Assembly (NCBI RefSeq): GCF_000737325.1
Contig: NZ_CP011125.1
Coordinates: 8,804,001-8,868,000, forward strand
Origin: Sandaracinus amylolyticus
Lineage (GTDB): Bacteria > Myxococcota_A > Polyangia > Polyangiales > Sandaracinaceae
Direction of reading: 5' to 3'
DNA: 64,000 nucleotides
Shown here: positions 33,488 to 47,196 of the stretch, piece after piece
Position numbering within the stretch: position 1 is the stretch's first letter
Layout: each line of letters opens with the position of its first letter
Notes under the pieces: model-generated
Database searches by the model: none
What the model saw: only the letters and a program-made list of their open reading frames with translations
Told to the model about the DNA's origin: nothing
Made by a program: the position numbers and the translations under genes

Positions 33488-34108
33488 TCACTCCTCGGTC
33501 GCTGCGGGCTCCGCGGGCACCGGCACGGTGCCGAACACCAGCCGATAACCGCCCGGCGCGGGAAGGCGCGCCTCGATGCGGCCGTCGGTCCACGTCGCGT
33601 CGACGAGCTCCCAGCCGCTGCACAGGTTCGCGACGTTCGGCAGCGGATCGAGGCCCTCGCGACAGATCGTCGCCTGCTCCATCGCGAGCACGAGGCGCAG
33701 GTTCGCGCGCCCGGGATCCCGCGGCTGTCGCAGCGACACGACGACCGGGCTGCGCGTCGCGTTGATCGCGCCGTCGAACGAGACGATCGGGCCCACGCGG
33801 CGGAAGCCCTCCGCGACGTGCGCGGGGTTCAGCGCGGCGCGCGCCGTGGCGACGCGCATGCGGCGCGCATCGCCGATCGGCAGGCCGGCGGGGACGAACA
33901 CGCGGAAGCCGCTGCCGAGCTCGAAGGTCATGCCCGCTTGACCGACGGCGGCGGTCGCTTCGTCGCGCCCGCGCGTCGTGGGCGGCTCGGCGGGCGCGGC
34001 GGCGGTCTCGTCGTCCGCGTGGTCTTCCTGCGCACGCGACTGCGGCGCAGCGAGCGCGAGCAGGAGCGAGAGGGTCGCGAGGGCGATGACGGATGGACGC
34101 ATCGACAT
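33488..34108 (-). CDS. secreted protein, unknown
   Basis: 206 aa. The ATG at 34108 is chosen for GGAGG 7 bases upstream; a second ATG is at 34102. Signal peptide cleaved near SRAQ. The mature part has an Ala/Glu/Asp-rich stretch, then a beta domain with 'FELGSGFRVFVPAGLPIGD' and two Cys (CREG, LCSGW). No family recognised. Last gene of the leftward A2M cluster. Confidence 0.65.
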   Translation of the reverse strand: MSMRPSVIALATLSLLLALAAPQSRAQEDHADDETAAAPAEPPTTRGRDEATAAVGQAGMTFELGSGFRVFVPAGLPIGDARRMRVATARAALNPAHVAEGFRRVGPIVSFDGAINATRSPVVVSLRQPRDPGRANLRLVLAMEQATICREGLDPLPNVANLCSGWELVDATWTDGRIEARLPAPGGYRLVFGTVPVPAEPAATEE

Positions 34109-34154
34109 GGCGTGGCCTCCAGAGGTGGTCGATTTCATGTAGCGCAAACTCGCA

Positions 34155-34437: not shown

Positions 34438-37400
34438 TCACTCGACGTCGCGCGGGGGCGCGACCTCGAGCGGGCGCGGCGCGAGCACCGTGATCGCCCC
34501 CGGCGCGTCGGCGGGATGCGCGATCACCGCGAGCCCCTCGAGCGTGCCGTGCACCGACCAGCGCAGCGGCAGCGGGAGCACCGCCGCCACACCCGCCTCC
34601 ATCGCGGGCAGCGTGACGCGCACGAAGCGCGGCTCGCGACGCGCGACGTCCAGCGCGCCGCGATCGCGCACCAGCTGGAGGAGCGCCTCGTCGGCCTCGA
34701 CGCCCGCGGGGAGCTGCAGGTCGACCACCACGCCGCTCGGGATGCGCTCACGCGCACGCACCGTGAGCTCGAGCGCGGCGACGTCGCCGGCGTCGCCGGG
34801 ATCGCCGTCGAGCGAGAGCTCGATCGGCGCGCGATCGATCGCGCGGAACGGCAGATCGAGCACCGTCTCGGCGCGCGCGATCACGTGCACGCCGGGCCCG
34901 CCGCGGCGCAGCGAGACGTCGACATCGCGCGCGTGGTCGATCGGGATCACCGCGATTCCATTCGTGAATTCGACAGCGTACGAGCGACCGTTCGCGACCA
35001 GCGCGAGAGAGGGCGCATCGCCGGCGCCGAGCACGCCGTAGCTCGCGGCGGCGAGCATCCAGAAGAGCGGCTCGCCGCCGCGCCGCGCGATCACGTGATC
35101 GCGATCGAGCGCGCCCGCGACGAGGCGCACCGCGAGCTCGCTCTCGCCGAGCTGATGCGCGGCGAGCGCGAGAGCGAGCGTCGACGAGAGCTGCTCGAAG
35201 CCGCTGTCGCGCGGCTCGCGCGTGCGCACCACGAGACCACCGCCGCTCTCGACGTCGACGACCGCGGCGCGGGCGCGCTCGAACATCACGCGTCCGTACG
35301 CGTCGCGCGGATCGGCGAGCAACAGGCCCGCGGCGAGGCGCGCGAGCACGACGGGCTCCTCGGGCACCCGACGCAGCGCGCGTCGGATGCGGGTGCGAAG
35401 CTGCGCCGCGTACGCGCTCACCGGATCGAGCTCGGCTTCTTCGGCATCGGCAGGATCGGGCACGCCTGCGGCGGCGAGCGCGACGAGCTGCTGCGACCAC
35501 GACGCGAGGTCGTCGCTCGAGGTCGACTGCAGCGCCCAGCGCGCGCGCTGCAGCGCGGCGGCCGCGTCGTCGTCCTCCTCGGCGAGCGCGGAGAGCGCGA
35601 CGATCGCGCATGCCGTCGCGACCGCGCGATCGTGGCCGGTGAACGATCCGTCGGGCTGCTGCGCCGAGAGAAGTCGCGCGCGCAGCTCGGGATCGATCGG
35701 TGCGCCCGCCATCGTCGCTGCCCAAGCGAGGGTCGCCGCGTCGTGCTCGCGGCGCTCGACGAGATCGGGATCGCGATGCAGCGCGCTCGGGTGCATCACG
35801 ACGACGCGCGCGATCGCGCGCGTCGCGCTCGCGGGCTGCTCGAGGCGCGTCTGCCACTGCTCGCGGAAGAGCGCGGTCGCGCTGCGCACGCGCCACGGAT
35901 GCAAGCCGGCGTCGACCGCCACGCGCCAGCGCACGGTGCGGATCGGCTCGTTCGACTCGCTGAGCGTGATCGTCGCCTCGCCCGCGCCGATCGCGGTGCC
36001 GCGCAGCTCGATCGTGATCGCGCGCGCAGTGCCCGCGGGCAGCGCGAGGGACTCGCTGGTGCCCTCGATCGGCGCAGCACCGCCCACCGTGATCGCGAGC
36101 TGGCGATCCTGCGGCGACGCGTTCGTCACGACGAGCGACAGTGACACCGGCTCGCCCGCGCGCAGCCGCGCCGGCATCGCGCCGGTGACGATCAGGGGCG
36201 CACCGAGCCGCGCGCGTGCCTCGGCGAGCGCGACGCTGCCCTCGGGCGTGAACGCGACCACGAGCGCGCCCCAGGTGCGCGGCTCTTCGTCGATGTCGAG
36301 CGCGACGCGCTCGCCGAGCGTCACGATGCGACCGCCCGCGCCGACGCCGGGCTCGGTGGGACGGCGCAGCGCGAGCGGCTCGGGATCGACCTCGAGCTCA
36401 CCGGGGAGATCGTTCCAGAGGCGCGCGCCCTGTTCCTGCGCGGCCGCCGCGGGCTGCGAGGGCACCGCGCCGACCGAGACCGGCACGATGCCGCCGTGCT
36501 GCAGCAGCTCGATCGTCGCGCGACCGAGCTCGGCGCCGCGCAGCCGCGCGACGAGCGCGTCCTCGCCGACCGCCTCGGCGTAGGGCGAGCCCGAGGGCAG
36601 CACGCGCGCGCTGGGATCGGCGACGTCGTCGCCGTTGCCAGGAATCCCGTCGGGCCCGCTCGAGAAGAGCTCCCATCCCGGCAGGGGCGACCACGCAGCG
36701 AAGCGCGCACGACCGGTGATCGCGCGCAGCACGAAGGGGCGGCCCCACGCGTCCACGAGCTCGCGCGCCGGGATCTGCCCAACTCCGTCGATCCACATCG
36801 AGGAGAGATGACGCAGCCAGGTCGAGGGATCGCCGAGGCGCGCCCACGGTAGGTCGAACCCGTTCGACTGCACGAAGCGGCGCAGCGCGACCATCAGCCG
36901 ATAGAGCCGCTCGCGCGTGATGCGCGCGGCGACGCGATCGTAGGTGAACGCGGGATCGACACGACGCAGCTGCTCGATGGTGAGCGGCTCGCCGCCGAGC
37001 CCGGTCGCGCCCTCCGCGCCGAGATCGCCCGAGCCCTCGAGCGCGGCGAGGATCTGCGCGTTGAAGTCCCAGCGCCCGTTCGTCTGCACCGCGACGTCGT
37101 CGATGCGCCCCGGGACCGCGCCCGCGACCTGACGCTCGATCGCCGAGAACACGAGCGCGAGGCGCCCGGTGAGGAAGCGCGACTGCGCGCGCCAGGGATC
37201 GCGCAGCAGTCCCTGCGCGACGGGATCGTCGGGCGTGGGCATCGGGATCGTGCGTCCTTCGCGGAGCACGAAGGGCGCGCCCACGTCGATCGGCGTCGCC
37301 GCGGAGAGCGCGCCTGCGATCAGCGCCGGGCTCGCGGTCGCGGGCTCGGTGCGCAGCGTCGCGAGCGGGCCGAGCGCGTCGTGTCGGATCGTCTGCGCGA

Positions 37401-39159
37401 GCGCGCGCGCCTCGTCGAGCGGCAGCGCGATCGTCCACGCGCGCGCGGTGATCACGTCGGACGTGGTCGACGCGGTGCGGAGCCCGCTCGCGTCGAGCGC
37501 CGCATCGATCGCGAGCGGTGCGCCGGCCTCGGCGAACACCAGCGCGCTGCCGCCGCGTACCTCGCGTCCCTCGATGATCGGGCGCGCGCGCACCAGCAGC
37601 GGGCCGGCGACGTCCTCGGGGATCGGGAGCTCGATGCGGGTCTCGCCCGGCGCGAGCACGCGCGCTGCCACCGCGTGCTGCAGGCCGCTCTCGACCGCGA
37701 GCACCGACACCGCGATCGGCGCGCGCGCGACCGACGCGGCGCGCGCGATCTCGAGACGCAACAACGCGCCGCTGCGCACCCGCACCTCGTCGGCGCGCAC
37801 GCGCGCGGTGCCGTCGGCGTCGAGCGGAAGGCACACCTCGCGCTCGAACGCGCGCGGACCATCGCCGACGCGGATCGTCACCGCGGCCTGCGCGTCGCCG
37901 CCACAGTGTCCGCTCGCGTCGTTGCCGGTGATCGAGACGTCGAACGTCGCCACGCCGCTGGCGTCGGTGGTCGCGGTGCGCTCCGCGCCGAGCCGTGGCC
38001 CCGAGATGCGCACCGGCACGCCTGCGCTCGCCGCGCGTCCTTCGAGATCGACGACGCGGACGAAGATGCGCCCGCCGAGCTCCGGGATCAGCGCGCCGCC
38101 TTCGACCGCGAGCGACGCGACGTGATCGACGCGCGACACCCGCACCGTTGCCTGACCGTCGCCGCGCCCCAGGCCTTCGCGCGTGACCGTCGCGTGGATC
38201 GTCGCGTCCGACCACGCGCCGCCGATCGCCGGCGCGCGCCACGCCATGCGCGTGCGGCCCGTCGCGTCGGTGCGCGCGGTGCGACCGGGATCGTCGTGCT
38301 CGAAGCCCGAGAGCTCGACGAGCGCGTTCGGCACCGGACGCCCATCGGGACGCCGCGCGACCACGTCGACCGCGATCGCGGCGCCGGGCTCGATCACGCG
38401 GCGCTCGGGCGCGATCGACACCAGCAGCGCAGGCGCAGCCGGCTCGGCGACGAGCGCGCTCGCACGCGCGCTCACCACGTTCTCCTCGGCGTCCTCGGCG
38501 CGCGCCTCGATGCTCACCTGACCGACCACGTCGCGACCCACCGCGAAGACGTGCGCGAAGAGGCCCGCGGCGTCGGTGCGCACCACGATGGGCGCGCCGA
38601 GCGGATGATCGTGTGCGTCGCGCGCGACGAGGCGCACCTCGACGTTCGCGATCGCACGCCCGGTGCGCGCTTCGCTGAGACGACCGAACGCGTGCACGCG
38701 TCCTTCACGCGGCACCTGAGCGCGCGCGACCCAGAGCTGGATCGCGCGAGGCTCGGTCACGCGGACCGTGAGCTCGAAGCGGCGCACCACACCGCGCGAG
38801 AGCACGCGCAGCACCACCGGGAACGCGTCCGGCGCGTCCTCGGGAATCGCGAGCTCGAGCGTCGCGCGGCCCGACGCGTCGGTCCGCATCGGGACCGTCG
38901 GAGCGCTGGGATCGAGCGCGGTGGTGAGCTGGATCCCGGCGTCGGCACCGGGGCGCAGATCGCTGGTGCCGATCACCTCGTACGCGGTGAGCAACCACCG
39001 CAGATGCCCGCCGCGCGGCGCGCTGAGCGCCCCTTCGAGCCCGAGCTCGAGCCCCTGGATCTCGGCGCCGCGCAGCGACGTGCGGCCCGCGCTCTGGGCG
39101 GCCGCGGAGGCGGTGAATAGCGAGATCGCGAGCAGAATCGAGATGTTACGCATCATCAT
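34438..39159 (-). CDS. alpha-2-macroglobulin-like protein without thioester (copy 2)
   Basis: 1573 aa. Start ATGATGATG at 39159, with GGAGGTGG 7 bases upstream. Signal peptide (cleavage after SAAAQ, about 21). Tandem Ig-like/MG domains (PGAAIAVDVVARRPDGRP, ISGPRLG, TTDASGVATFDVS) then a GspG-like segment (about residues 800-853: DAWGRPF, SSGPDG, GDDVAD), a late MG domain (VTNASPQDRQL) and an alpha-helical region with QPDGSFTGHDRAVATACAIVAL (terpenoid-toroid/TED-like). The thioester CxEQ is absent, as in E. coli YfaS. Bacterial A2Ms are thought to trap proteases in the periplasm. Overlaps copy 1's stop by 4 bases. Confidence 0.8.
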   Translation of the reverse strand: MMMRNISILLAISLFTASAAAQSAGRTSLRGAEIQGLELGLEGALSAPRGGHLRWLLTAYEVIGTSDLRPGADAGIQLTTALDPSAPTVPMRTDASGRATLELAIPEDAPDAFPVVLRVLSRGVVRRFELTVRVTEPRAIQLWVARAQVPREGRVHAFGRLSEARTGRAIANVEVRLVARDAHDHPLGAPIVVRTDAAGLFAHVFAVGRDVVGQVSIEARAEDAEENVVSARASALVAEPAAPALLVSIAPERRVIEPGAAIAVDVVARRPDGRPVPNALVELSGFEHDDPGRTARTDATGRTRMAWRAPAIGGAWSDATIHATVTREGLGRGDGQATVRVSRVDHVASLAVEGGALIPELGGRIFVRVVDLEGRAASAGVPVRISGPRLGAERTATTDASGVATFDVSITGNDASGHCGGDAQAAVTIRVGDGPRAFEREVCLPLDADGTARVRADEVRVRSGALLRLEIARAASVARAPIAVSVLAVESGLQHAVAARVLAPGETRIELPIPEDVAGPLLVRARPIIEGREVRGGSALVFAEAGAPLAIDAALDASGLRTASTTSDVITARAWTIALPLDEARALAQTIRHDALGPLATLRTEPATASPALIAGALSAATPIDVGAPFVLREGRTIPMPTPDDPVAQGLLRDPWRAQSRFLTGRLALVFSAIERQVAGAVPGRIDDVAVQTNGRWDFNAQILAALEGSGDLGAEGATGLGGEPLTIEQLRRVDPAFTYDRVAARITRERLYRLMVALRRFVQSNGFDLPWARLGDPSTWLRHLSSMWIDGVGQIPARELVDAWGRPFVLRAITGRARFAAWSPLPGWELFSSGPDGIPGNGDDVADPSARVLPSGSPYAEAVGEDALVARLRGAELGRATIELLQHGGIVPVSVGAVPSQPAAAAQEQGARLWNDLPGELEVDPEPLALRRPTEPGVGAGGRIVTLGERVALDIDEEPRTWGALVVAFTPEGSVALAEARARLGAPLIVTGAMPARLRAGEPVSLSLVVTNASPQDRQLAITVGGAAPIEGTSESLALPAGTARAITIELRGTAIGAGEATITLSESNEPIRTVRWRVAVDAGLHPWRVRSATALFREQWQTRLEQPASATRAIARVVVMHPSALHRDPDLVERREHDAATLAWAATMAGAPIDPELRARLLSAQQPDGSFTGHDRAVATACAIVALSALAEEDDDAAAALQRARWALQSTSSDDLASWSQQLVALAAAGVPDPADAEEAELDPVSAYAAQLRTRIRRALRRVPEEPVVLARLAAGLLLADPRDAYGRVMFERARAAVVDVESGGGLVVRTREPRDSGFEQLSSTLALALAAHQLGESELAVRLVAGALDRDHVIARRGGEPLFWMLAAASYGVLGAGDAPSLALVANGRSYAVEFTNGIAVIPIDHARDVDVSLRRGGPGVHVIARAETVLDLPFRAIDRAPIELSLDGDPGDAGDVAALELTVRARERIPSGVVVDLQLPAGVEADEALLQLVRDRGALDVARREPRFVRVTLPAMEAGVAAVLPLPLRWSVHGTLEGLAVIAHPADAPGAITVLAPRPLEVAPPRDVE

Positions 39160-42100
39160 CGCGCCACCTCCCACAGCGGGCGCGGCATCGGCACCGGAGG
39201 TCTGGGCTCGGGCGGCGGCGACGCGTCGGCCTCGGGCGGCTCGGGCTCGGGGCCGTCGTCGGCGATCACGAGCTCGCGCGAGGGCAGCACGCTCACCGCG
39301 CGCACGTCGGCGCGCGGCGGCGCGGCGTCGTCCCACGCGCTCGCGCCGAGGCCGCGCAGCGTGCCGCCGACCGACCAGCGGGCGCGCACCGGGATCGCGG
39401 TGAAGCCGCCGGGCGCCATCGGACGCAGGTGCAGGCGCAGCGTGGCGCCCTCGAGCTCGGGCGGTGCGGCGAGCAGCGCGGTCATCGCCTCGCGCGTGGG
39501 CTCGTCGAGCTCGGCGCCCGCGGGCAATTCGATCTCGACGATCGGTCGCGCGATCACCCGCGCGCCGCGGTTGTGCACGGTGAGCAGCGAGCCCGAGCGC
39601 ACGTCGCGCGCGCCGGTCTCGCCGGTCCACGCGAGATCGAGGCGCGCGCTGCGCGCGGGCGCGACGTCCCACGGGAGCGCGTAGCGCAGATCGATCGTCG
39701 CGAGGGCGAGCGCGCCCTCGGGCAACGTGATCACGATGCGATGCGCGCCCGGCGCGCCGAGCCCGTCGAGCGTCGCGCTCGCGACGCCGCCCTCGAGCGC
39801 GCTCTCGATCGCGCGTCCGTCGAGCGTCACCGCGATCGACTCGATCGCCCCGCGCGTGAGCAGCGCGGCGGCCGCCGATGCGAGCGCGCGCACCCGAGGC
39901 GGCCATCGGTGCGCGCCGCGCGCGATGTCGGCGATGTTGCGGAGCAGCGGCATCGCGCCTTCTGGCTCGCCCATCGCGATGCGCGCGAGCGCGAGGTGCG
40001 CGGTGGGCTCGACGCGCGGCTCGATGCCGCCGTCGTCGGCGTCGGGCTCGAGCCACGCCTGATCGCCTCCGTCGGACGAGCGCAGCGCGAAGACGTGGCG
40101 CTCGGCGCGGCGCAGCATCTCGCTCGCGCGCGGATCGTCGGCGCCACGGCGGCTCAGCGCGAGCGCGGCGGCGACACGCGCCCACGTCGCGGGCGCGTCG
40201 GAGGCACGCGCGCCTTCGGCCGACGCGAGGCGGCGAAGGCGATCGACGAGGCGCAGCAGATCGTCGCGCGCGCTCGGGTGCGCATCGACGTCGCGGATCG
40301 CCGGCGCGAGCGCGACGAGCATCGCCGACGCGGGCGCGAACACCGGCATGTCGGGGCGCACGATGCGCGCGTCGCGCACCTCCTCGGGCAGCTGCGTCGC
40401 GAGCGAGCGCAGCGCGGCGGCCGCCGCGTCCTCGCTCAGGTTGGGCAGCGTCCATCCCGCCCCGAGCAGCGTCGCGAGGTGCAGCGGGTCCCAGCCGCGG
40501 AACCAGCCCTCGTCGACGCCGGGGTCGGTCGGCAGCTGCGAGAGCACCGCGTCGCGCGCGACGTCGGGCATCGGGCGGCGCGCCATCGCGAGCGCCCAGG
40601 CGGCCTGCACCGCGTCTCCATCGCTCGCCCACTCCGCGGGGTCGCCGACGATCGCGCCGCCCACCGCGACGCGCAGCTGACCGGGGCCGCGCTGCAGCGC
40701 GCGCGCGGGCACGTCGATCGTGATCTCGTCGCCGCTCCCCACGAGCTCGCGACGCTGCTCGACCACGCGTCGTGCGTCCTCGATCACCACGATCGGCCGG
40801 CGCACCGCGTCGAGCGCGGTGCCGTCCTCGCGCAGCGCGCGCACCACGATCGCGCCCTCACCGGCGGCGCGCGCACGCACCACCGCGATCGCCTCGCGCG
40901 AGTCGCCGGGCGGGATCTCGATCGGCGCGAGCGGCTCGACGTCGAGCCCTGCCGCGCCCTCGATCGTGATCTCGAAGCGCGCGCGCAGCGGCTCGGTGGT
41001 GCGATTCTGCACGCGCACCGGCAGGCGCATCAGGTCGCCGATGCGCGCGGCGGGCGGCACCGGCGCGTCGACCATCGCTTCCTGATCGACGCGGACCCTG
41101 CCGCGACCCGAGGTGATCCAGCCCGACGTGGTCCAGCCGATCGCCTCGAGGCGATACGTCGTGAGCGCGTCGGCGAGCGGGATCGTGATGCGCGCGGTGC
41201 CGCTCGCATCGAGCGCGACCTCGCCGACGAAGAACAGCGTCGCGGGGAACTCCTCGCGCACCACCGAGCCCATTGCCTGGAGGCGATCCGGCGCGACGGG
41301 CTGCGCGGGGGCCTGGGCCTGCGGTGCTTCACGCGCAGGCGCGTCTCGCGCGCGACGGCCGCGGCCACCCTCGGCGTCGTCGGCGAAGTCGTAGGCCACG
41401 CTCTCGCCGCTGGCGGCGGCGCCGCCCATCGCCTGCTGCTCGATCTCGCGCGCCATCCGATCAGCTTCGGCCTGCATGTCGGCGAGCTCGGCCTGCAGTC
41501 GGATGTCCGACTCGCTCACCGTCGCGGTCACCGGCCCGGCGCGTCGCTCTTCTTCCGCCGCGAGCCCGAGCCGTCGGTACGCGGTCACCAGCGCCTGCAG
41601 CACGCGCTCTCCCGGCGCGAGCCGCGAGAGCTGCTCCATCAAGCGGTCTTCGCCCGAGATCACCGCGTACGGCGTGCGCGCCGGCACCGCGCGCTCGAAC
41701 GGATCACGCACGTCGTCGGCCGTGCCCGCGCGCCCATCGGGCCCCGGCGACGCGAGCTCGTAGTCGACCGCGCGCGACGACACGACGAGCGCGGGGCCAC
41801 GCCCTCCGACGCGACGGAGCGCGAACGGCCGACCCCACGGATCGATCAGCGCGTCCGCAGGAAGCATCCCGAGCTGCACCACGCGCGCGAGCCAGCGCTC
41901 GGGCGGCTCCCCCGCCGATGCACGCAGCGCTGCATCGTCGTCCGGATTCGCGAACCGCGTGAGCGCGACCAGCAAGCGCACCAGCCGCTCGCGCGCCACA
42001 CGCCGCGCGATGCGATCGAACGTGAAGCTCGGATCCGCCGCGGTGATCATCGCGAGCGTCAGCGGCTGACCACCGAGCGTGAGCGCCTGCGAGGGCGCGA

Positions 42101-44336
42101 GCAGGTGCATCGCGACCACGCGCTCCACCACATCGGGTCGCAGCTCCACGCGCGTGCCGCTCGTGCGCACCAGCGCATCGCGCGCGGCGCGGTCCGACCC
42201 CAGCTGCGCCACCGCGCGCTCGATCGCGTGCATCACCGGCGCGAGACCACGACGGCGCAGCTCCTCGCGCGCCGCGATCGGATCGCGCAGCACGCCGCCC
42301 GCGAGCACCGGCGCGCTGCCGGTCGGGCTCTCGTGCGTGTCCCACGGCTCCTGCACCAGCGGCGCGGGCTGCGTCACGGCGCCGTCGAGCGGCAGCGAGC
42401 TCGCGAGCGACGCGCGCACGTAGCGCTCGTTCGTCGCGTCGAAGGGCCCGCGCAGCACGTCGCGCAGCTCGCCCGCGATCCACTCGAGCGCGAAATCGCT
42501 CTCCCCACCGTGCGCCGCCTCGTCGCGCGCGAGCAGCGCGATCCACCCCCGCTCCGGCGACACGCTGGCACGCACCGCGACGTCGGCGCGCTCGCGCACC
42601 CGATGCAGCTCGCGCTCGGGCGTCACGTCGAGCGCGAACGCGTCCGCGGGACGCACGAGGATCGCGGTGATCGTGCCGCGCTCGATCAGCGCCGCGCCGA
42701 GCTCACCCATCGGGCGCGACGCATCCGCCGCCGACACCGGACGCGCGCGCACCCGGAGCACGCCCTGCACGTCGGCCGGCAACACGAGCGTCACGCTCCG
42801 CGCGCTCGCATCACCCCACGCCGCGGCGACCGCGCGATCGTTCGCGAGCGCCTCGACCAGCACCAGGCGTCCGTTCGCGCGCGGACGCCGGATCAGCTCG
42901 ATCTCCACCCGCGACCCGGGCGCGACCACCGGCGTGCGCGCCCGCGCGAGCACGCCCGCCTCGAGCGCCACCCGCGCGCACACCGTCGCGAGCGTCGACG
43001 CCGGCTGGGTGCGCACCTCGACCTCGAAGCTCGTCGCGGGCTGCCCCGCGCACGCCCCACCCTGCGCGCGCGCCGCCGCACCGCGCGGCAGGCGCACCCG
43101 CACCGAGGCGAGCCCGTGCGCATCGGTGCGCGCCGTCGCGCGTCCGTTCGGCACGCCGAGCCCACGCACCTCGAGCTCCACGCCCTGCGAGATCGGCCGC
43201 CCGCGCGGGTCGCTCACCGCGAGGTACAGCTCGGTGTCGATCTCGGGCACCAGCCCGCCCGCCTCGGGCGTCGCCGCGACCAACCATCGCGTGCGCGCGA
43301 GCGTGTACGCCGCCGAGCCCACCAGCGTGCCGTGCGCCGCGTGGCTCACGCGCGCGATCACCTGCCGCGGCGCCGCGTCGCCCGCGAGGAAGCTCGGCGC
43401 GCGCGCGTCGATCACCGCGATGCCTTCGTCGTCGGTCACCAGCTCGAGCGGCGATGCGTTCTCGTCGCCGACCGTCAGCGACACGCGCGCGCCGCGCACC
43501 GGCGTGCCCGAGGGCGTCGTCACCCGCACCCGACCGCCGAGCGGCGCGCCGGGCTCGAGCACCTCGCGGTCGAGCGTGACCTCCACCGCGAGCCGCTCGA
43601 CGGTGCGCCGCACGATCGTGATCGCACGCGCGGCGAGCGGCGCGCCTTCCGCCTGCGCCTGCACCGTCCATCGCCCGAGCGCCGCGCCCTCGGGGATCAC
43701 GATCTCGACCGATGCCGCGCCCGACGCGCCGGTCTCGGTGCGCCGCTCCGCGACCATCGTGCCCTGCTGATCGTGCAGTCGGAAGACGATCGGCGCGCTC
43801 GGGATCGGCGCGCGATCGCGCACCGCGCGCACCAGCGACCAGACGCGCACCGTCTCGCCCGGCTGATAGCGATTGCGATCGGTCAGCACGTCGACGCCCC
43901 GCGCCGCGAGCTGCGTCATCGGGAACCGGAAGACGCGCCCCGCGATCCCGGCGCGATGCACGTGCACCTCGATCCACGGCGCCGCGAGATCCTCGAGCGG
44001 CACCGGCACCTCGATGGTCACACGTCCTTGCTCGACGCTCCGCGCGTGCGCGCGCAGCACCACCTCGCGGCCGTGCCCTACCCTTCGCTGCTGCGTGAGC
44101 GTGACGTCGAGCTCGAGCCCCGGCGTCGGGCGCAGATCGGAGAGGCCCTGGACCTCGTACGCGGTGCCGTGCAGGCGCACCATCGCGCCGCGCTCGGCGG
44201 CGGTGCTCCCGTGCAGCGCGAGCTCGTAGCCCACCGGGCTCGCGGGATCCACGGCGTCGGCGTCCTGTGCGCGGGCGAGCGCTGGGGCGAAGAGGACGAG
44301 AGCGAAGAGAAGAAGAGAGCGCGGGCTCGTGCGCAT
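39156..44336 (-). CDS. alpha-2-macroglobulin-like protein without thioester (copy 1)
   Basis: 1726 aa. ATG at 44336, AGGAG upstream. Signal peptide to about 23. MG/Ig-like domains fill residues 30-560 (PGETVRVWSLVR, TDDEGIAVIDA). About residues 825-880 carry the GspG-like segment (DPWGRPF, SPGPDGRAGTADDV). A Glu/Ala/Gln-rich coil (about 955-1020) follows, then the canonical MG7 signature (EFPATLFFVGE, DALTTYRLEAIGWT, RLPVRVQNRT) at about 1030-1130 and a helical TED-like region. No CxEQ thioester; only a few Cys in the whole chain. Longer than copy 2 by the coil. Stop overlaps copy 2's start. Confidence 0.82.
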   Translation of the reverse strand: MRTSPRSLLLFALVLFAPALARAQDADAVDPASPVGYELALHGSTAAERGAMVRLHGTAYEVQGLSDLRPTPGLELDVTLTQQRRVGHGREVVLRAHARSVEQGRVTIEVPVPLEDLAAPWIEVHVHRAGIAGRVFRFPMTQLAARGVDVLTDRNRYQPGETVRVWSLVRAVRDRAPIPSAPIVFRLHDQQGTMVAERRTETGASGAASVEIVIPEGAALGRWTVQAQAEGAPLAARAITIVRRTVERLAVEVTLDREVLEPGAPLGGRVRVTTPSGTPVRGARVSLTVGDENASPLELVTDDEGIAVIDARAPSFLAGDAAPRQVIARVSHAAHGTLVGSAAYTLARTRWLVAATPEAGGLVPEIDTELYLAVSDPRGRPISQGVELEVRGLGVPNGRATARTDAHGLASVRVRLPRGAAARAQGGACAGQPATSFEVEVRTQPASTLATVCARVALEAGVLARARTPVVAPGSRVEIELIRRPRANGRLVLVEALANDRAVAAAWGDASARSVTLVLPADVQGVLRVRARPVSAADASRPMGELGAALIERGTITAILVRPADAFALDVTPERELHRVRERADVAVRASVSPERGWIALLARDEAAHGGESDFALEWIAGELRDVLRGPFDATNERYVRASLASSLPLDGAVTQPAPLVQEPWDTHESPTGSAPVLAGGVLRDPIAAREELRRRGLAPVMHAIERAVAQLGSDRAARDALVRTSGTRVELRPDVVERVVAMHLLAPSQALTLGGQPLTLAMITAADPSFTFDRIARRVARERLVRLLVALTRFANPDDDAALRASAGEPPERWLARVVQLGMLPADALIDPWGRPFALRRVGGRGPALVVSSRAVDYELASPGPDGRAGTADDVRDPFERAVPARTPYAVISGEDRLMEQLSRLAPGERVLQALVTAYRRLGLAAEEERRAGPVTATVSESDIRLQAELADMQAEADRMAREIEQQAMGGAAASGESVAYDFADDAEGGRGRRARDAPAREAPQAQAPAQPVAPDRLQAMGSVVREEFPATLFFVGEVALDASGTARITIPLADALTTYRLEAIGWTTSGWITSGRGRVRVDQEAMVDAPVPPAARIGDLMRLPVRVQNRTTEPLRARFEITIEGAAGLDVEPLAPIEIPPGDSREAIAVVRARAAGEGAIVVRALREDGTALDAVRRPIVVIEDARRVVEQRRELVGSGDEITIDVPARALQRGPGQLRVAVGGAIVGDPAEWASDGDAVQAAWALAMARRPMPDVARDAVLSQLPTDPGVDEGWFRGWDPLHLATLLGAGWTLPNLSEDAAAAALRSLATQLPEEVRDARIVRPDMPVFAPASAMLVALAPAIRDVDAHPSARDDLLRLVDRLRRLASAEGARASDAPATWARVAAALALSRRGADDPRASEMLRRAERHVFALRSSDGGDQAWLEPDADDGGIEPRVEPTAHLALARIAMGEPEGAMPLLRNIADIARGAHRWPPRVRALASAAAALLTRGAIESIAVTLDGRAIESALEGGVASATLDGLGAPGAHRIVITLPEGALALATIDLRYALPWDVAPARSARLDLAWTGETGARDVRSGSLLTVHNRGARVIARPIVEIELPAGAELDEPTREAMTALLAAPPELEGATLRLHLRPMAPGGFTAIPVRARWSVGGTLRGLGASAWDDAAPPRADVRAVSVLPSRELVIADDGPEPEPPEADASPPPEPRPPVPMPRPLWEVAR

Positions 44337-44460: not shown

Positions 44461-45330
44461 TCAGTCGTTCGCGGCGGGCACGACCGCGAGATCCTCCGCG
44501 ACGGTCATGTGGAAATGGAAGCGATGCAGCGGGTTGTGCATCAGCATCGGCGGCCCGACGTCGCTCGTCATGCCGCGCCCCTCGAACCACGCGCGGAAGT
44601 CGCGGACCAGATCGGGGTCGTTGTAGTAGATGCGCAGCCGACCGCCCGAGCAGGTCGCGAGGATCTTCGCGAGGTCGATCACGCGCGCGCGCAGCAGCTC
44701 GACCTCGCGCGCCGAGCGCTGCGCGTAGTTGTCGGGATAACGCCCGCCCCCGATGTTCTGCGCGATCATCGCGTGCTCGAGGTACAGGTCGACGTCGACG
44801 CCGCGATCGTGGGTCTGATGGCGCGGCCCCGCCGCATCGAGGTCGCCGACCGTCACCACCTCGCCGGGCCAGCGACGCTGGTACTCCGCGGCCGTCGCCG
44901 CGATCAGCGAGACGAGCCCGGGGCGCGCCCAGCGATGATCGTCGGTGGTGTTGCGCCACGTGCGCCAGAGCCCGCCCGACTCGCGCCCGGTCGGGAGCTG
45001 CCAGCGACACCGCGGATACGGCGCGCCCTCGTCGCACGCGGGATCGCGCGGGTACTCGAGCGCCGGGCGCAGGCACGCGTAGTCCTCGTCGCTCGGCGCA
45101 GCGAGGATCGCGCCGTCGGGCGCGAAGCGCGGGTCGTGCGTGCCGGCGTCCTCCGGCGTGCTCGCCGCGACCACCACACCCGCATCGGGGCTCGGCTGGT
45201 CGCGCCGGGTCTCGACCACGATCTCGCCCGCCTCTTCCCCGGCGAACGCGAGGGCCACCGCACCGAGCGCCGCCCCGACGAGCGGGAGCGCGAGCCAGAC
45301 CACCGGAGGAACGCGTGCAGGACCTGCCAC
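44461..45330 (-). CDS. MepA-like (LAS-family) murein endopeptidase
   Basis: 289 aa, GTG start at 45330. N-terminal TM/signal anchor (about 9-30). The C-terminal half matches LAS-type zinc peptidases (MepA): first motif HQTHDRGVDVDLYL (His and Asp ligands, about 170-183) and second motif HRFHFHM (about 268-274). MepA cleaves D-Ala-meso-DAP crosslinks in peptidoglycan. Residues 65-150 have Cys pairs. 124 bp upstream of the A2M gene on the same strand, so it may lead that operon: a wall-cutting enzyme next to protease-trap proteins fits attack or defence at the envelope (inference). Confidence 0.75.
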   Translation of the reverse strand: MAGPARVPPVVWLALPLVGAALGAVALAFAGEEAGEIVVETRRDQPSPDAGVVVAASTPEDAGTHDPRFAPDGAILAAPSDEDYACLRPALEYPRDPACDEGAPYPRCRWQLPTGRESGGLWRTWRNTTDDHRWARPGLVSLIAATAAEYQRRWPGEVVTVGDLDAAGPRHQTHDRGVDVDLYLEHAMIAQNIGGGRYPDNYAQRSAREVELLRARVIDLAKILATCSGGRLRIYYNDPDLVRDFRAWFEGRGMTSDVGPPMLMHNPLHRFHFHMTVAEDLAVVPAAND

Positions 45331-45552: not shown

Positions 45553-45780
45553 TCATCTCCGTGAGATCATCGAGCCCCGGCCGTGCCAGCGGTCCGGGGC
45601 TTCGACGTTCTGGCGGCTCGGCCCACCTGAGGCCGATCTCGGCGCGACGTCGCCACCGCGAAAATCGCGAGCGGCTGCGCGTCCCGGCTGGCGCGCGAGC
45701 GGACGAGCGGGAAGAAATGGAGCGCGCGACGCGGACGTTGCGCGCGAACCCCGGTGCGCTGCCCCGGGTCGAGGTGCGTG

Positions 45781-47196
45781 GTGCTGGTTCGGATGGACGA
45801 GCGCGGGGCCGGGGGGCCCGGCGAGCGACAGGGACGCGCAGGGTCCCATGCGACGCGCGAAGGCCTCGCGCGATCGCTGGCGCGCACCGTTCCGCTCGCA
45901 TCCGCGCTGGGCGCCGCGCTCGGCTCGGCGCTCGCTGCGCTCGTGGTGCACGCGCTCTCGCTCGCCGTTCCACTCGCGCCGGTGCTGGTCACGTGGGCGG
46001 GCATCGGCGCCGCGATCGCGGGCGCGCTCGCCGTGCGCCGCGCGACGCGCCGCTTCGATGCGGTGGCGCGCTTCCTCGAGATGCGCATCGCCGCGACCAG
46101 CTCGCAAGCGCGACGCGAGCAGGACGCCACGCGACGCGAGCGCAAGCTCGCCGCGGACCTCGCGCGGAAGACCGAGGAGCTCGAGGCCAGGCTGCGCGAG
46201 CGCGCGCTGCTCTTCGAGGTGCTGCGCGAGAGCGCGAGCAGCCACGACCTCGACTCGGTGCTGCGCGCGCTCGTCGACCGGCTCGGGCCCGCGCTGCGCT
46301 TCCGCGAGGTCGCGGTGCTCATCCAGCAGGGCGAGCGGCTCGCGATCCGCGCCGCGTGGGGCTTCACCGATCCCAGCACCGTGCTCGGGCGCACGATCCG
46401 CGTCGGCGAGGGGCTCTCGGGCGAGGCGGCGGCGAAGGGCGAGTCGGTGGTGGTGCCCGACGTCGCGGCGGCGCCCGAGTACCTGGCGTTCTGGGGCGAG
46501 GTCCCGCGCACCGGCTCGTTCATGTCGGTGCCGATCCAGGTGAAGGGCGCGATGATCGGCGTGCTCGCGCTGACCCGCCCGCCGACCGATCCGCTGACCG
46601 AGGAAGAGACGCGCTACGTCGAGGCGCTCGCCGATCAGGTCGCGCTCGCGATCCACAACGCGCAGCTCTTCGAGGAGCTCGAGGCGCGCTCGACCCACGA
46701 CGCGCTCACCGGGATCGCGAACCGCCGACTGTTCGAGGAGCGTCTCGCGAAGGCGCTCGCCGACTCGCGGCGCTTCGGGCACGCGGTGTCGCTGCTCGCG
46801 ATCGACGTCGACCACTTCAAGAAGCTGAACGACCGCTGCGGTCATCCCGCGGGCGACGCGGTGCTCGTCGAGGTGGCGCGCGTGCTCGCGCGCGGTGTGC
46901 GCGAGGTCGACACGGTCGCGCGCGTCGGCGGCGAGGAGTTCCTCGTCGTGCTCGCGGGCGCGGACGAGCACGAGGCGGCGAAGGTCGGCGACAAGCTGCG
47001 CGCCGCGGTCGCCGCGATCGAGCTGCCGGGCACGAAGGACCAGCCGCTCGGTCGACTCTCGATCAGCGTCGGCGTCGCGAAGGCGCGCGAGGGCGAGACC
47101 GCGGAGGCGCTGGTCGCGCGCGCGGACTCGGCGCTCTACGACGCGAAGCGCAAGGGTCGCAATCGCGTCTCGACCTGGCCGCCCCCTTCCGCGTGA
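45781..47196 (+). CDS. GAF-GGDEF diguanylate cyclase
   Basis: 471 aa. The start is uncertain: GTG at 45781 has GAGG 6 bases upstream; ATG at 45793 is an alternative. Two hydrophobic segments (about 40-60 and 67-90), a coiled linker (about 105-145), a GAF domain (about 145-300, FREVAVLIQQGERLAIRAAWG) and a GGDEF domain (about 305-465). The active site reads GGEEF (383-387) and the inhibitory I-site RxxD (374-377, REVD) sits exactly five residues before, so it should make c-di-GMP and be feedback-inhibited. Signal unknown. No other c-di-GMP gene in view. Confidence 0.9.
   Translation: MLVRMDERGAGGPGERQGRAGSHATREGLARSLARTVPLASALGAALGSALAALVVHALSLAVPLAPVLVTWAGIGAAIAGALAVRRATRRFDAVARFLEMRIAATSSQARREQDATRRERKLAADLARKTEELEARLRERALLFEVLRESASSHDLDSVLRALVDRLGPALRFREVAVLIQQGERLAIRAAWGFTDPSTVLGRTIRVGEGLSGEAAAKGESVVVPDVAAAPEYLAFWGEVPRTGSFMSVPIQVKGAMIGVLALTRPPTDPLTEEETRYVEALADQVALAIHNAQLFEELEARSTHDALTGIANRRLFEERLAKALADSRRFGHAVSLLAIDVDHFKKLNDRCGHPAGDAVLVEVARVLARGVREVDTVARVGGEEFLVVLAGADEHEAAKVGDKLRAAVAAIELPGTKDQPLGRLSISVGVAKAREGETAEALVARADSALYDAKRKGRNRVSTWPPPSA

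Follow-up and report, generated by a model that had tools for sequence, protein, structure and literature searches.

Two tandem genes in the 64-kb window (the whole stretch of DNA analysed here, C1:8804001-8868000 of a 10.3 Mb, single-contig genome) encode large proteins in which an A2M-family scaffold very likely carries, within its bait segment, a pseudopilin domain homologous to that of GspG. Taken without the question of homology, the architecture, a GspG-type domain in the bait segment of an A2M, is close to certain. The parts are each known already; their combination within the A2M family appears to be new.

The two genes lie head to tail on the minus strand, copy 2 preceding copy 1 (Table 1). 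The stop codon of copy 2 and the ATG of copy 1 share bases (ATGA), and therefore the two genes are probably translationally coupled. Pfam recognises MG2 (1.2e-14), A2M/MG7 (1.1e-7) and MG4 (4.2e-6) in copy 2, and MG4 (7.3e-7) and A2M (3.5e-6) in copy 1; the A2M family domain, PF00207, is thus present in both, scoring 27.2 and 32 bits where the cut-off is 21. The N-terminus of copy 2, MRTSPRSLLLFALVLFAPALARA, is signal-peptide-like as judged by eye, as is that of copy 1, and each protein may be secreted or periplasmic. Pfam found neither a TED nor a bait domain in the window copies, and both are without the C.EQ thioester motif, which other members of the A2M family may also lack.

A sequence-only reading of this DNA had placed a D(P/A)WGRPF motif and a GPDG...DDV loop in both proteins, at 36600-36770 and 41690-41860, and these coordinates are right. 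The segment that it outlined is correctly located but too short, the conserved insert beginning ~190 residues before the calcium loop. Both loops conform exactly to the PERCAL consensus G-x-D-G-x-x-[GN]-[TN]-x-D-D and are the only two matches in the six frames of the window; shuffling the residues of both proteins yielded a match in 2 of 6000 cases. The helical module upstream of the pseudopilin-like module in copy 2 is perhaps a degenerate second pilin module; in a search for internal duplication, alignment of module A with module B by hhalign scored 18.2 against 17.1 for the best of 60 shuffles.

Table 1. Positions in the window of the two A2M-like genes, their parts and their neighbours
Feature	Position	Strand	Basis or remark
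Copy 2, A2M-like protein, 1726 aa (P0003)	39156..44336	-	Pfam; no CxEQ thioester
Copy 2 upstream conserved helical module	42030..42296	-	LGGQPL replaces DPWGxPF; without calcium loop
Copy 2 whole conserved insert (residues 688-886 of P0003)	41700-42296	-	conservation
Copy 2 GspG-like pseudopilin module (residues 777-886 of P0003)	41700..42029	-	profile searches, AlphaFold, structure alignment
Copy 2 DPWGRPF motif (GspG DPWG strand)	41823..41843	-	alignment
Copy 2 PERCAL calcium-loop motif GPDGRAGTADD	41712..41744	-	motif match
Copy 2 Arg/Ala/Pro-rich low-confidence linker just before MG7	41265..41399	-	model residues 414-459, pLDDT <50
Copy 2 A2M domain (PF00207, vertebrate MG7)	40977..41234	-	Pfam, structure alignment
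Copy 1, A2M-like protein, 1573 aa (P0002)	34438..39159	-	Pfam
Copy 1 upstream conserved helical module	36952..37212	-	alignment
Copy 1 GspG-like pseudopilin module (residues 737-849 of P0002)	36613..36951	-	alignment to copy 2
Copy 1 DAWGRPF motif (residues 803-809)	36733..36753	-	alignment
Copy 1 PERCAL calcium-loop motif GPDGIPGNGDD	36625..36657	-	motif match
Copy 1 A2M domain (PF00207)	36091..36306	-	Pfam
M74-like protein, just upstream of the A2M pair	44461-45330	-	weakly like murein endopeptidase M74; again only in congener G002
219-aa protein	33488-34147	-	
GAF-GGDEF protein	45754-47196	+	

A 334-aa piece of copy 2 used as a query retrieved relatives from 57 of 194 related genomes. Sandaracinus and Sorangium are among the named relatives. 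In all 18 tandem loci that we read, copy 2 precedes copy 1, and the motif is present in every protein (36/36). Five genomes hold two separate tandem pairs, all with the insert (L038/L039, L040/L041, L042/L043, L044/L045 and L046/L047), and Polyangiaceae-type genomes mostly possess a single, more distant copy. The D, W and G of DxWG are invariant in alignments of 34 and of 50 sequences. Within the loop, G206, D208, G212 and D216 (model numbering) are invariant in the 50 relatives and D215 is found in 49 of them; the PERCAL consensus holds strictly in 39/50 and in relaxed form in 50/50. The two other A2M-like ORFs of the genome, L196 and L198, contain no DxWG, calcium-loop motif or CxEQ in the stretches examined, and therefore the A2Ms of this genome do not share the insert as a rule. 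The three genes listed last in Table 1 were considered as members of a unit with the pair and rejected, recurring only in the congener among the loci examined.

CxEQ is likewise absent from every motif-bearing relative within the Polyangiales, and this family therefore looks like a derived, thioester-less branch of the A2Ms. Since the window copies lack the thioester, a role for them as a protease trap is unproven. Thioester A2Ms with a GspG-like insert do exist, both in Acidobacteriota (L122, L191/L142, L192/L143, L193/L144 and L185) and in Myxococcota (L182, L183 and L184), and in these the insert follows the Pfam bait-region domain and precedes the A2M domain, the same place as in the window copies. 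The T2SSG domain of L144/L193 lies above the Pfam cut-off (23.8 bits, E 4.7e-5), and the L144 insert matches many short GspG-sized ORFs across genomes, with E down to 6e-9. Moreover, one acidobacterial protein (L185:852-6476, minus strand) contains three consecutive DxW...G-x-D modules separated by GspG-like helices, the array being succeeded by a carboxypeptidase-regulatory-like domain. A second (L188:1031-5569, plus strand) seemingly has three tandem GspG-like modules, likewise in the bait position of an A2M protein, and no CxEQ was found in the stretch of it that was examined.

These observations bear on the alternative that the A2M pair, having no thioester, has been repurposed, for instance as an adhesin or a scaffold of the envelope, and that the module serves it as a structural spacer, with no trap function. 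That is a real possibility, though we would bet against it. It accords with the loss of CxEQ throughout the motif-bearing Polyangiales copies, with the lack of Pfam TED and bait domains in the window copies and with the pairing of two paralogues, which suggests a heteromeric scaffold; the insertion at the same place in thioester A2Ms, however, argues that the module is compatible with a trap.

The genome also encodes a GspG-like protein and other pseudopilin-like proteins (C1:1272570 region), and the module might accordingly mimic GspG so as to dock onto the type II secretion machine of the same cell, by which the protein would be secreted or at whose pseudopilus it would be retained. We regard this as unlikely, given that the hydrophobic alpha1-N helix, a requirement for assembly into a pilus, is missing from the module and that the A2M pair is distant from the T2SS genes and outside any T2SS gene cluster. 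On inspection, no prepilin cleavage site with a hydrophobic alpha1-N precedes the module (residue 737 or 777) in either chain. With alpha1-N missing, polymerisation of the module into a pilus also seems unlikely.

Evidence that the segment is related to GspG comes from several directions, each of moderate weight and together convincing. A profile of the segment built from 34 relatives, searched against all PDB sequences, returned GspG/PulG entries only (3g20, E 0.0055; 5wda, 0.82; 1t92, 0.83; 29jd, 2.2), and the alignments to 3g20, 5wda and 1t92 run from the helix through the calcium loop. T2SSG was the only recurrent Pfam family, matching 16 of the 34 members against one or two for every other family, and a blind T2SSG scan of the whole genome picks out copy 2. 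For T2SSG the Pfam cut-off is 21 bits, and the window copies fall below it (copy 2 scores 18.6); only relatives pass it, namely L144 and, at 22 bits, the copy of the congener G002. Against 58 GspG-type pseudopilins from the same order, hhalign returned Prob 97.3 and E 1.9e-11. When the calcium loop was removed the score was 32.9, and none of 40 column shuffles exceeded 15.1, although this match is short, covering 10 columns around DPWG. The helix alone gave no significant sequence match to the GspG profile in hhalign.

An AlphaFold model of the insert was made for copy 2 with 50 sequences, copy 1 being judged by alignment to it. The model has a mean pLDDT of 87, with most of the core >93, and a pilin-like fold; the C-terminal fold of GspG with its DPWG strand is thus seen in the predicted model for copy 2 and by alignment for copy 1. 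The top Foldseek match was 3g20, but with an E of 0.63 and a probability of 0.84. In VIA-align the top five matches are all GspG/EpsG/PulG structures (4lw9, Z 8.8; 3gn9, 8.1; 3fu1, 8.1; 3g20, 7.9; and 5o2y, calcium-bound PulG, 7.6), aligned over 94-101 residues at an rmsd of 2.6-4.5; the notes of the aligner itself rate a Z of about 8 as middling, and the weight lies in one family filling the first five rows. Type IV pilins form the next group, with Z ~4. PDB profile search, profile-profile alignment and predicted fold therefore agree with the likeness to GspG that had first been read from the letters, and neither outcome named there as refuting it, a missing structural match to GspG or an MG-type fold, was seen.

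Calcium is coordinated in GspG 3G20 by D117 and D125, the side chains at motif positions 3 and 11 (PMC3396595), and is required for the activity and folding of pseudopilins (PMC3396595, PMC6692295). Both of these aspartates, residues 874 and 882 of P0003 in copy 2, are invariant in the window family. PERCAL is also found in other folds, such as bacterial peroxidases (PMC3396595), as well as in a subtilisin-like frame (L138), and so the calcium loop alone is insufficient to assign a protein to GspG. An isolated PERCAL in an unrelated helical domain, without GspG ancestry, would in addition fit the lack of a significant match for the helix by itself. Nevertheless, sharing of the loop only is very improbable in view of the loop-free profile match, short as it is, the invariant D, W and G of DPWG in the 50 relatives, the length of the fold match to GspG and the similarity of the L144 insert to GspG-sized ORFs.

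A further proposal, in which the segment has diverged from part of an MG domain, has the position between MG domains in its favour but is scarcely credible, as the model consists largely of helix plus a small sheet of pilin type, and the segment has an MG fold on either side.

The same flanks place the module within the scaffold. A 605-aa model of copy 2 reads, in order, MG domain, linker, insert, two helices, low-confidence linker and MG domain, and the flanking MG parts fit residues 846-1088 of Salmonella A2M (4u48) with a Z of 14.4. The bait-region domain of E. coli A2M forms part of MG8, and its bait is disordered at residues 923-942 (PMC4498604). Because the flanks are the MG domains that surround the bait region of the Salmonella and E. 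coli proteins, the modelled insert occupies the A2M bait-region position, at the vertebrate MG6/MG7 junction. The Arg/Ala/Pro-rich linker of copy 2 is likely, judging from the model, what remains of the bait loop.

Compared with GspG/PulG/EpsG (PF08334; 3g20, 5o2y, 4lw9), the window modules have in common the alpha1-C helix, the DPWG strand, a short sheet and the ligand positions of the calcium loop (G-P-D-G-x-x-[GN]-[TN]-x-D-D), the exact PERCAL consensus being set in a pilin-like fold as in GspG and not in a peroxidase insert. In contrast to GspG, they lie mid-chain in proteins of 1600-1700 aa, without a prepilin leader or hydrophobic alpha1-N, outside a T2SS cluster and with another conserved helical module in front. 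The window family shares with the A2Ms of Salmonella (4u48) and E. coli (ECAM, 4rtd) an MG scaffold and an A2M domain after the bait segment, but differs in the folded pseudopilin-like module at the bait position and in the lack of CxEQ.

The trigger of an A2M is set by its bait region, normally a disordered loop. The presence at this position, in more than one phylum, of a folded domain of pilin type that bears a calcium loop suggests that parts of secretion pili have been recruited into bacterial relatives of complement. In complement C3 and C5 the corresponding site of the scaffold holds a small folded insertion, the anaphylatoxin (ANA) domain. The position of the pseudopilin domain may be likened to it, making the bait position a bacterial site of domain insertion, comparable to the anaphylatoxin site of vertebrate complement, although ANA is a disulphide-bonded helical bundle whose fold is unrelated to the pilin-like module.

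For an A2M with a GspG-type domain in its bait segment, we tentatively propose a calcium and bait mechanism, which is possible rather than probable. The domain comprises helix alpha1 in its C-terminal half, the DPWG strand and the calcium loop, but no membrane helix, which entry into a pilus would require. By analogy with GspG, the loop would bind calcium and aid folding of the domain outside the cytoplasm. The resulting rigid, calcium-dependent domain might hold or present the leftover flexible bait linker, or else block the cavity; once the linker is cleaved or calcium is lost, the domain would come free and the A2M would change its conformation. The window pair has no thioester, and there capture would be non-covalent or the scaffold would have another role. 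A more speculative extension, which we consider doubtful, is that pseudopilin domains are a recurrent, portable replacement of or addition to the bait region, with arrays of up to three in some Acidobacteriota (L185, L188), giving calcium-gated traps that are set only while calcium keeps the module folded extracellularly and are sprung by cleavage or calcium loss. Calcium control of some bacterial A2Ms is thereby offered as a testable idea. The literature that we searched, with most subscription journals and the architecture databases lying outside it, contained no account joining a macroglobulin with a pseudopilin or T2SSG domain.

Lastly, GspG-like modules and the PERCAL motif also turned up outside A2Ms. 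Two proteins of NC10/Methylomirabilota (L119:4137-5501 and L123:8203-9348, both plus strand) combine DUF4388, a membrane-like segment and a C-terminal GspG-like module, and so show the pseudopilin module in yet another setting that is not a pilus. A 411-aa protein of Planctomycetota (L117:8110-9342, plus strand) ends in a T2SSG domain (E 4.7e-9) with no adjoining pilin-type N-terminus. The subtilisin-like frame mentioned above (L138:772-3141, plus strand) carries its PERCAL motif as the insertion GPDGLPNTADD.
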